From contig NZ_CP102282.1 of the NCBI RefSeq assembly GCF_025150745.1, forward strand, positions 569,501-633,500: a stretch of 64,000 nucleotides of DNA, written 5' to 3'. The notes under the pieces are model-generated. The model had not been told where the DNA came from. It ran no database searches and worked only from the letters and a program-made list of their open reading frames with translations. Shown in pieces: positions 19,954-42,663 of this stretch. The translations under genes and the position numbers were made by a program. The DNA is from Eubacterium ventriosum. GTDB taxonomy: Bacteria > Bacillota > Clostridia > Lachnospirales > Lachnospiraceae. Within the stretch, counting starts at the first letter, position 1. Every line of letters starts with the position of its first letter.

Positions 19954-19983
19954 AAAGTGGTTGCGTATAATATATTTTAGAAT

Positions 19984-20147
19984 TTGAACGCAGATAAGCA
20001 TTCCCCCGCTTCAAGTGCGCGGAGCACTAAGCGGCGGGTGAGGGGGGGATGCTTATGTCAGTGGGAGTTGAAAGCTCCCACTGACAGATCGCGAAGCGAC
20101 TGCGTTCATGAGCAAGTAGCGAAGCGGATTGCGAATGTCCGCTTTAC
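19984..20147 (+). repeat. Dispersed GC-rich repeat, family 1, copy 1
   Basis: A 164-base element, much richer in G+C than its surroundings. It is identical to 26020-26182 except for one extra G in a G run. It folds as an outer stem (TGAACGCAG/CTGCGTTCA), an arm joining GATAAGCAT and ATGCTTATGTC, a perfect hairpin GTCAGTGGGAG/CTCCCACTGAC, and a 3' hairpin AGCGGA/TCCGCT. GCGAAGCG occurs twice. It lies between convergent genes. Open frames through it are by-products of the repeat. Confidence 0.88.
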
Positions 20148-25270: not shown

Positions 25271-25568
25271 GGACAATAGCAAATTACAATTTTTATGGAT
25301 AGTTGTAAAGCTAACATATCAATATTTTATCCATCGGGGAGCAGAAATTTATGCAAGCAAACAATAGGCAGATTTTTGAAATTTTGCGAGCATAGTGTAA
25401 GCCAAAAATCAACTGTCTGAGCCGTAGGCGAGTTTTGATTTTTGGACTTACAATAAACGGCGGAGCAAAATAATAAAATCAACGTGTTTGCGGTATAAAT
25501 TTCTGTTCAACGATGGTAAATACAAAATATTGATTTGCAACTATCTAAATATGAATTTGCTATTATCC
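25271..25568 (+). repeat. Palindromic dispersed repeat, family 2, copy A
   Basis: A 298-base imperfect palindrome filling the gap between the rhomboid and HIT genes. Arms: GGACAATAGCAAATT with AATTTGCTATTATCC, then ATCAATATTTTATCCATCG with its near complement, then CAGAAATTTAT with ATAAATTTCTG. The core (25350-25495) matches copies B and C. The tip hairpin has the stem CCAAAAATCAA/TTTTGATTTTTGG and the conserved loop CTGTCTGAGCCGTAGGCGAG. No gene is seen. Confidence 0.85.
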
Positions 25569-25601
25569 AATAAAAAGAATTGGATTTAGGAGGTAAGTTT
25601 T

Positions 25602-26012: not shown

Positions 26013-26019
26013 GAATGGT

Positions 26020-26182
26020 TTGAACGCAGATAAGCATTCCCCCGCTTCAAGTGCGCGGAGCACTAAGCGGCGGGTGAGGGGGGATGCTTATGTCAGTGGG
26101 AGTTGAAAGCTCCCACTGACAGATCGCGAAGCGACTGCGTTCATGAGCAAGTAGCGAAGCGGATTGCGAATGTCCGCTTTAC
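26020..26182 (+). repeat. Dispersed GC-rich repeat, family 1, copy 2
   Basis: 163 bases, identical to 19984-20147 apart from a G run of six instead of seven. It begins eight bases after the HIT stop and again sits between convergent genes, ahead of a terminator. It has the same outer stem and three hairpins. Confidence 0.88.
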
Positions 26183-27435: not shown

Positions 27436-27685
27436 GATAATTTATTCGGATTGATTGCAAACAATTTTTGAAAATCTCGCAAAAAGTTATGCAAGCAAAC
27501 AATAGGCAGATTTTTGAAATTTTGCGAGCATAGAGTATGTCGTAAAAGTGACTGTTTGAGCCGTAGGCGAGTTTCACTTTTCGACATACAATAAGCGGCG
27601 GAGCAAAATGATAAAATCAACGTGTTTGCGGTATAACTTTTTGCGAGATTTTAGTAGTGTTTGCAACAATCCATAAATAAATTAT
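27436..27685 (+). repeat. Palindromic dispersed repeat, family 2, copy B
   Basis: A 250-base palindrome between murG and the LCP gene, its 3' arm touching the LCP stop codon. The inner arms CGCAAAAAGTTAT/ATAACTTTTTGCG are perfect and differ from copy A. The tip stem GTATGTCG..AAAAGTGA/TCACTTTTCGACATAC also differs. The loop ACTGTTTGAGCCGTAGGCGA and the sides AAGCAAACAATAGGCAG and AACGTGTTTGCGG are conserved. Confidence 0.85.
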
Positions 27686-29064
27686 TTATTATCTGAAGCC
27701 TGATATTCTTTAGCCTTGCTTTCAAGGGTTGTGTAATCTGTGCCATCTAAAGCAAGTTTCATCAATTCAGTTGCGTTGCTTTCAGATTGTTCATCCTGGA
27801 GCATTACTGATTTGAACAGACCGTTCCATGTTAATTTCTGTGATGCACTCTGTCCTGTTACACTGTAGGATACGATTTGCCATCCTGTTTTTGAAAACTC
27901 ACTTTTGCCCATAAGCTGTGTCTGGAGTTTTACAAGTGAGCCAATGTTCATGTCTGTTTTAAAGCTTTCTCCAACAGCACTAAGGATTGAGTCTGTGTTT
28001 GTAATCATTGATGTTGAAAGTACTTTTGATGATAATGCTTTTAATACTTTAACCTGATTACGGTTACGCTGTAAGTCACCATCGCCGAATGAATGTCTTT
28101 CACGAACAAATGTAAGTGCTTCGTTACCATTCATTTCCTGTTTACCCTTTTTGTACTTGTATGTTTTACGTTCACCGTTGTCTTCATCATATGAAGCGTA
28201 TGTTTTTGTGCTAAATGACTTGTCAACATCTACTGTAATGCCACCAAGAGCATCTACAAGTTTGGCAAAACCTGTAAAGTTAAGCTGTACATAATGATAG
28301 TTCTTGCTTGAAACAGGTATATTGTAAAGTGTTTTTAATGTATCCATAATTGCAGTGTTACCAACGCCCCATGTTACTTCCTGAGCCCAGTTCCAACCAC
28401 TTGAAGTAAGTTCAGAACCATTCTGATCGTAGGCAATACCTGTTCCGTATTTTCCGGCGTGAGTAAGTTTGTCGTATGAATCAGGTGCAACGCTCTTTGC
28501 AATAATTGGTACGTAGTAATCTCTTGGTGTTGAAATCATAAGTACTGTAGAAGTTTTAGGATTTACAACAGCAAGAATATTTGTATCTGAACGGTAGTTT
28601 TCCTTCGGATTGTATGTACCAAATTCATCACTGGCTGATACGAAAACAACGAAAGGTTCCTCAGAAACTTTTTTGCCGTCGCTGTAGTTATTAAGGAATC
28701 CTAAAAATTGTCCCATGTAAAATAAAAGTATGCCAAGTATTATTGAAATTATAACGGACAATATTTTACCTGAAGTACGGGCTGCACGGCCACCCTTCTG
28801 TGTTAAAAGGGCAATTGCAAAAAGAACAACCAATACAATAACTAAAACAGCAAGATAAGTTGTGCTTAAAATATTGGCAGAAACTACCTGATAAACAAGA
28901 AGCCCTGACAAAACAAGCTGTATTAATGCTAAGATGACGCCTAAAACAGAGCCACCTTTATTTCCCTTTTTCTTTTTATCCTTTCCGGAAACATTTCCCG
29001 ATTCAGAAGAGTATCCGTAATAACCGGTTTTGTTATCTAAATCGGACATCATTTTTCTACTCAT
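27682..29064 (-). CDS. LytR-CpsA-Psr family polymer ligase
   Basis: A 460-residue membrane protein. A cytoplasmic N-terminus (about 1-35) is followed by three hydrophobic segments and an extracellular LCP domain (about 140-400) with TSTVLMISTPRDYYVPI, KLTHAGKYGTG, ALGGITVDVDKSF and FVRERHSFGDGDLQRNRNQ. LCP enzymes transfer teichoic acid or other glycopolymers from their lipid carrier to peptidoglycan. It is divergent to the polymer cluster that starts at 29378, as expected for its ligase. AGGAGG precedes the start. Confidence 0.92.
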   Translation of the reverse strand: MSRKMMSDLDNKTGYYGYSSESGNVSGKDKKKKGNKGGSVLGVILALIQLVLSGLLVYQVVSANILSTTYLAVLVIVLVVLFAIALLTQKGGRAARTSGKILSVIISIILGILLFYMGQFLGFLNNYSDGKKVSEEPFVVFVSASDEFGTYNPKENYRSDTNILAVVNPKTSTVLMISTPRDYYVPIIAKSVAPDSYDKLTHAGKYGTGIAYDQNGSELTSSGWNWAQEVTWGVGNTAIMDTLKTLYNIPVSSKNYHYVQLNFTGFAKLVDALGGITVDVDKSFSTKTYASYDEDNGERKTYKYKKGKQEMNGNEALTFVRERHSFGDGDLQRNRNQVKVLKALSSKVLSTSMITNTDSILSAVGESFKTDMNIGSLVKLQTQLMGKSEFSKTGWQIVSYSVTGQSASQKLTWNGLFKSVMLQDEQSESNATELMKLALDGTDYTTLESKAKEYQASDNK

Positions 29065-42388: not shown

Positions 42389-42426
42389 AAGCGGGTTCGT
42401 TATGACTAGTCATAATAAACCCGTTT
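42389..42426 (+). terminator. Terminator after the TSCPD gene
   Basis: AAGCGGGTTCGTTATGACTA pairs with GTCATAATAAACCCGTTT, with one or two mismatches. The tail TTTCGAC is weak, so termination may be incomplete. Confidence 0.6.
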
Positions 42427-42433
42427 CGACTAT

Positions 42434-42663
42434 AATTGAAAAAGCTAACAGAACTTCTTGTCACAGGAAAAATTTTATATGCAAACACGTTGAAATTCTT
42501 ATTTTGCTCCGCCGCCTATTGCAAAGCGAAAACCTAAACTCGCCTACGGCTCAGACAGTAGGTTTTGCGCTTTACGCTATGCTCGCAAAATTGCGAATTT
42601 CTGCCTATTGTTTGCGTATATAAAATTTTTCCTGTGACAAGAGAATCAATAGCTTTTGCAATT
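42434..42663 (-). repeat. Palindromic dispersed repeat, family 2, copy C
   Basis: About 230 bases in the opposite direction to copies A and B. Outer arms CTTGTCACAGGAAAAATTTT and its exact complement are again perfect but unrelated in sequence to those of A and B. Read on the minus strand, the tip loop CTGTCTGAGCCGTAGGCGAG, the segment GCAAACAATAGGCAG and the segment GGCGGAGCAAAATAA are conserved. Located between the TSCPD gene and mtnN. Confidence 0.85.

Follow-up and report, generated by a model that had tools for sequence, protein, structure and literature searches.

A hairpin repeat family with constant loops and variable stems, probably spread through Lachnospiraceae

Three copies of a palindromic repeat lie in the window, the 64,000-nt stretch of DNA that was analysed, and they raise a question about how hairpins change. 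Unpaired segments are common to all three copies, the stems around them differ in sequence, and each stem has its own complementary partner. Are such stems the mark of a selected RNA or DNA structure, as a preliminary description of this DNA held, or can events at the DNA level rewrite them? What that description had located was found: copies A and B on the plus strand and copy C on the minus strand, the common segments, three inner arms each with its own partner, three different tip stems, and the change from GATTTT/AAAATC to GAAATT/AATTTC in copy C.

Copy A (25271-25568, plus strand) has its core at 25356-25493, from AGCAAACAATAGGCA to AACGTGTTTGCGG, which corresponds to the covariance-model match G000:C1:594856-594993 (alignment A1, row L002). 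The variable tip stem-loop (GTAAGCCAAAAATC...GATTTTTGGACTTAC) occupies 25397-25451; this and the other two tips were placed from the sequence and the list of tip blocks. The locus-specific left arm (25273-25355) has the right arm (25494-25568) as its partner, with 49 Watson-Crick pairs over 55 aligned arm positions; the outer edges of all arms given here are approximate. The right arm lies in the spacer 25271-25601 (331 nt). Copy B (27436-27685, plus strand) has its core at 27494-27631 (G000:C1:596994-597131; row L001), its tip stem-loop (GTATGTCG...CGACATAC) at 27535-27589, and arms at 27436-27493 and 27632-27690 (54 Watson-Crick pairs over 64 aligned positions), the right one extending to the 3' end of a reading frame at 27682-29064. 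For copy C (42434-42663, minus strand) the core is at 42479-42616 (G000:C1:611979-612116, minus strand; row L022) and the tip stem-loop at 42521-42575. Its low-coordinate arm (42434-42478) and high-coordinate arm (42617-42663, placed from the sequence and the arm pairing count) form 54 Watson-Crick pairs over 69 aligned positions. A terminator-like hairpin at about 42389-42425, recognised by eye, directly adjoins copy C. Another multi-hairpin structure occurs at 26019-26182 and 19983-20147; these two copies are 99% identical and are the sole matches in the home genome, and the one at 26019-26182 weakly matches Clostridiales-1 RNA (20.4 bits against a gathering score of 48).

A DNA search of the home genome (G000, 2.86 Mb in a single contig) with the core of copy B returned 30 full-length copies (L001-L030) at 77-100% identity plus partial ones, of which 27 full-length copies lie beyond the three in the window and were missing from the preliminary description. 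Covariance model R1, built from these 30 copies, gave 33 matches in the same genome, three of them partial or altered copies. At L158, L160 and L163, also in this genome, the tip or most of the core is gone and the arms are still paired, as judged by eye. The repeat unit measures about 250-330 bp, with outer arms of 20-80 bp around a core of about 138 bp. Judged by reading frames only, all 30 cores lie outside the neighbouring long frames; both neighbours read along the core in 14 copies and against it in 7, while 4 cores lie between divergent genes and 5 between convergent ones. This count disregards short frames within the element, and at L015 and L018 the chosen frame starts 5 and 9 bases inside the core edge. 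The repeat is therefore multi-copy, short, non-coding and, as far as reading frames place it, intergenic, as a MITE would be.

The order of parts is the same throughout. From the outside in, the locus-specific arms are followed by GCAAACA/TGTTTGC and then by unpaired ATAGGCA opposite AACG. Next inward comes a variable stem, GATTTT/AAAATC in 16 copies and one of 12 other versions elsewhere, which encloses a near-constant stem, ATTTTGC/GCAAAAT, followed by unpaired GAGCATAG opposite ATAGGCGGCGGA. The tip stem is variable, with 20 versions among the 30 copies, and the tip carries CTGTYTGAGC...GCGAG. In relatives the unpaired parts are kept while even the near-constant stem varies.

A match to a known RNA family would have removed the novelty of the repeat. 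At gathering scores no Rfam model matched in the window or over the element in ten loci with divergent copies, and a permissive search around copies A and B (E up to 5) gave no match over the element either. Clostridiales-1 RNA (RF01699; PMC2864571) is comparable as a structured candidate RNA of Clostridiales, of Rfam type 'Gene; sRNA', but its model matched neither copy A nor copy B (E up to 5) nor the elements in the ten loci. The two occur as neighbours in UBA7225, where some 30 nt separate the end of a full Clostridiales-1 RNA (95.6 bits) from a family copy (L031:82-255 and 286-428). The hairpin family is real, and no description of it was found in the open-licence literature searched.

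Further intergenic copies, which the preliminary description had named as support for a new family, also occur beyond the home genome. Model R2, built from 14 divergent copies, found the repeat in 49 of the 397 genomes searched within this bacterial family, representing 46 of 334 genera with the home genome included, when at most eight candidates were scored per genome. With the narrower R1, matches came from 6 of the 22 further genomes in the genus, from 1 of 13 further family members and from none of 24 further genomes in the order. At the level of the class R2 matched in 10 of 391 genomes; seven of these lie outside the family and are weak (28-36 bits), and two of the loci concerned (L294, L295) have mainly the tip motif in common, by eye. 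Within the genus the number of R1 matches ranges from 33 down to 0, a range in which draft genomes undercount because contigs end inside the element: those of G004 and G007 stop at the same base within it (the last base of L140 and L141), so that G007, scored as a miss, ends within a copy. An exact pattern scan of named genomes gave a single match, Lachnospiraceae bacterium UBA7225, because the stems vary too much for a DNA pattern. From this named carrier the host family was taken to be Lachnospiraceae, and the repeat has probably spread through that family. A phage origin was rejected, as viral contigs held no match to the exact pattern. A divergent copy in G002 separates a T-box leader from a gene start (L044:1179-1386 and about 1500-1660).

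Is the repeat an added unit? A comparison of orthologous sites, proposed in the preliminary description, answered this in part, in that spacers were shorter in relatives at all three window sites. The 331-nt spacer of copy A compares with 12, 28, 34, 57 and 62 nt in five relatives (L171 of G015 was left out, having no start-codon match). For copy B, 630-649 nt between matched stretches compare with 334-400 nt in six relatives, and for copy C, 375-403 nt compare with 22-79 nt in the four relatives in which both neighbours matched up to the spacer. Identity to these relatives is no more than about 65-82% in the genes that were matched, too low for the exact empty site to be read.

Copies in relatives suggest that the unit moves. 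In G288, three copies have an identical core and near-identical arms at different flanks, with a fourth copy close to them; in G342 the same holds for six copies. G413 has the same core with two classes of arms, found in four and in three copies, and part of the outer flank is also common there. Direct repeats of 10 and 11 bp were seen by eye beside two of the four G288 copies, the other two being without duplication, and an inspection of G000 by eye, which was not systematic, noticed no target duplication. Terminal inverted repeats common to copies are present in G288 and G342, while no terminal repeat common to the G000 copies was found. Each end of the G342 units is half of a 24-bp palindrome, and the units lie within such palindromes, with a TATA-like repeat (by eye); copies lacking tip or core occur there, as do single arms. 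In the same genome (L252-L268) 24-bp palindromes near TTTCATAAAGTATACTTTATGAAA recur, often 321 or 326 bp apart, and bound several kinds of unit, resembling a cassette array.

No transposase was recognised by eye among the neighbour frames of 69 loci. The two largest common frame groups run through the element itself, the next, which looked like ABC transporters, is common to 8 of the 69 loci, and the others to at most 4. REPINs and REP sequences with their RAYT (Y1) transposases (PMC3116915) resemble the repeat in being non-autonomous hairpins outside genes, for which folding in single-stranded DNA or mRNA is predicted. However, Y1 transposase (PF01797) had no match in G000 and was present in 5 of 10 carrier genomes and equally in 5 of 10 genomes without model matches. 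Mobilisation by RAYT is not supported.

The reading that we prefer, at a probability of about 0.53, is that the family consists of non-autonomous, MITE-like mobile hairpin units whose stems are rewritten by template switching and whose parts are exchanged between copies. The whole unit would insert through an enzyme supplied in trans. After insertion, polymerase template switching would copy one arm onto the other, and the arms would in this way diverge from those of other copies while remaining complementary; at times the same process would flip the core. Where copies recombine at their constant loops, tips and whole cores could be swapped, and the loops themselves may be kept constant by a sequence-specific partner, whether a mobiliser, an RNA-binding protein or an RNA. 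Selection at the RNA level may act as well. Several observations count against this reading: no mobiliser was found, two of the four G288 copies are without duplication, G000 has no common terminal repeat and no target duplication was noticed there, G-U cells outnumber A-C cells, the arms at one locus look like a terminator, the correlation between core and arms is weak, and there is but a single instance each of core inversion and of strong arm compensation between orthologues.

Orthologous loci record the kind of rewriting that this reading describes. At a locus where the flanks of G008 and G004/G010 are 91-92% identical, the core lies in opposite orientation, and 14 bp of the arms pair completely on either side of the comparison, three of the pairs being compensatory (by eye). 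Between the orthologues of G393 and G076 (flanks 84-85% identical) the loops are near-identical and the tips wholly unrelated, the G076 tip resembling those of other G076 copies; their arms have one clear compensatory pair and a second that needs a one-base register shift (by eye). In all, the comparisons yielded a single core inversion and a single orthologous pair of arms with strong compensation, with polarity unreadable for want of an outgroup. In G342 one tip was found in two arm classes. Similarity in the tip was uncorrelated with that in the rest of the core among 29 copies in G000 (Spearman -0.13, permutation p 0.90); the two parts have unrelated histories. Core and arm similarity were weakly correlated in the same 29 copies (0.14, p 0.009). 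The cores of L002 and L008 are 98% identical in unrelated arms, which is hard to reconcile with arm evolution by compensation alone without exchange, and that possibility was set aside.

Base-pair covariation is widely accepted as proof of functional RNA. Over the 30 home-genome copies 97.9% of core cells were paired, and 23 of 43 core pairs had changed on both sides, a number matched by none of 500 shuffles. The covariation score of 0.339 compared with 0.145 in shuffles (0/500) and with at most 0.084 when partners were slid by 1-3 columns. A fifth measure, further pair types, was matched by 25 of the 500 shuffles. The covariance-model and covariation check that the preliminary description had advised bore out a structured family, with its 33 home-genome matches and with none of 500 shuffles reaching the observed values on four of five measures. 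Among the 14 divergent copies 28 of 40 pairs had changed on both sides, the score was 0.512 against 0.185, and all five measures gave 0/500. In both alignments the structures tested were derived from the alignment itself. Covariation exceeded the shuffled and slid controls, as it would in a structured RNA, and template switching may yield the same.

According to published work, arms become homogenised and spacers inverted when template switching occurs between inverted repeats (PMC8604942), and template switching can also give rise to RNA stems and preserve them, with compensatory changes of several bases (PMC8794818). The types of pair and mismatch bear on this. Over 37 pairs the core stem cells comprised 1068 Watson-Crick, 19 G-U, 6 A-C and 17 other; 8 of the 19 G-U cells stand in a single column, and these mismatch and pair-type counts leave out six RNAalifold pairs that the 43-pair covariation test keeps. 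Sixteen of 30 extra pair types are unreachable through a G-U step and 14 are reachable; in rRNA 61% of instantaneous changes are G-U-bridgeable (PMC8794818), a different measure that makes the comparison indicative only. Mismatches in the inner 28 nt of the arms showed no significant strand bias (21 G-U against 14 A-C, p 0.31), while in two longer windows G-U exceeded A-C (40 against 21 and 72 against 46, p 0.02 in each). L005 was left out of the arm mismatch counts and of the tip, core and arm correlations because its right flank resembles an insertion sequence.

Full Watson-Crick replacement in nearly every change, few G-U pairs, inner-arm mismatches without significant strand bias and inversion of the core in place are predictions of template switching, so that covariation alone is no proof of selection for folding. 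On these grounds the earlier claim that compensatory change in every stem marks a selected structure is not supported in that form. The core-stem pattern fits DNA template switching plus exchange between copies. The excess of G-U over A-C in the core stems and longer arm windows indicates that RNA-level selection may act too. Furthermore, loops conserved across genera need function or selection, which counts against a purely DNA-level account.

These last points are also what a functional structured RNA would explain, a cis leader or small RNA multiplied by duplication, with selection for folding keeping the stems and a binding partner keeping the loops. From genus to genus the loops stay constant and the stems vary, the family occurs in 46 of 334 genera, G-U cells exceed A-C cells in the core stems (19 against 6), and both neighbours read along the core in 14 of the 30 copies; G008 and G010 have the core upstream of rpsL without a difference in 126 nt, although their flanks are 92% identical. 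Yet G-U pairs are few for a stepwise path, matches fall from 33 to 0 inside one genus (drafts undercounting), and no neighbour gene family is common to more than 8 of 69 loci. The core is also invertible relative to its neighbours, and 7 of the 30 copies oppose both of their tandem neighbours. We regard this explanation as possible but less likely.

A further possibility treats the constant-loop core as a portable module. It would move between unrelated arm pairs, either entering hairpins or replacing its counterpart in another copy, on terminal repeats that differ from lineage to lineage, its stems being rewritten by template switching. We advance this tentatively and think it rather unlikely to be correct; if true, what defines the mobile element would be its loops and not its ends.

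The arms themselves bear on the remaining explanations. Pairing of arms within a locus averaged 29.2, against 12.6 between loci (sd 3.4, maximum 27.5; 30 copies, the edge of L020 being misplaced). In the first 28 nt, 29 of 30 loci exceeded the 99th percentile of cross-locus pairing; between 28 and 75 nt only 11 of 30 did, so that very long arms are confined to a subset. The earlier view that the arms are specific to their locus is upheld. In the home genome the arms are mostly unrelated from locus to locus, with a faint common ancestry (5.3% of 435 pairs above the null's 99%; top pair L003-L025). The arms of L033 pair exactly over a run of 58 bp that takes in the core edge; those of L220 do so over 68 bp, with matches at 82 of 85 positions. 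For neither arm set was a second site seen, the related-query search covering the L220 genome only. These long exact arms are consistent with recent arrival, with correction of the arms or with arms made at insertion.

Could the core be mobile and insert into the loops of hairpins that were already there, terminators for instance, the arms being target sequence? At the G004/G010/G008 locus the arms resemble the terminator of the upstream gene, and four core-less relatives have a plain terminator-like hairpin in the same place (both by eye), which is consistent with insertion into an existing hairpin. The outer arms of L008, L011 and L030 likewise hold terminator-like hairpins, by eye, and the near-identical cores of L002 and L008 sit in unrelated arms. 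Usual terminator stems, however, are far shorter than the exact runs of L033 and L220. The arms travel with the core in G288, G342 and G413, and at the copy A site the five relatives have short spacers with no evident hairpin. That the arms are pre-existing terminators at every locus was rejected because of copy A, and the explanation as a whole is unlikely. The preliminary description had also suggested that insertion itself creates the arms, here taken as fold-back copying from one flank. This would suit the near-perfect arms known at one locus each (L033, L220) and the mostly unrelated arms of the home copies, but it fails as a general rule and is very improbable, given the same core with near-identical arms at different flanks in G288, G342 and G413, the arms that changed in step after insertion at the orthologous G008 and G004/G010 locus, and the traces of common arm ancestry among the home copies.

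Among known systems, bacterial MITEs and small palindromic repeats are among the closest to the mobile hairpin units of the preferred reading. Like them the repeat is short, multi-copy, intergenic, hairpin-forming and gene-free, and its arms serve as common terminal inverted repeats in some relatives. Unlike MITEs, the home-genome copies have no common terminal repeat, the constant part is the inner loops rather than the ends, and no partner transposase was found. Stem-loop repeat families of this class are described in a 2008 survey of 40 bacterial genomes (PMC2267715), with which the comparison holds at the level of the class rather than of family lists. Hairpin elements of sponge mitochondria (PMC2800124) are likewise intergenic repeats that invade related genomes, but according to that account their stems are conserved and their loops variable, the reverse of the present family.

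The family is of interest because its copies record rewritten stems, exchanged tips and an inverted core, and because its loops stay constant. Dozens of copies with two-sided stem rewriting, one flipped core and swapped tips offer a test of how much covariation comes from template switching without stepwise selection. For the bacteria themselves, this is an unannotated repeat family within a large bacterial family, and it may affect neighbouring genes.
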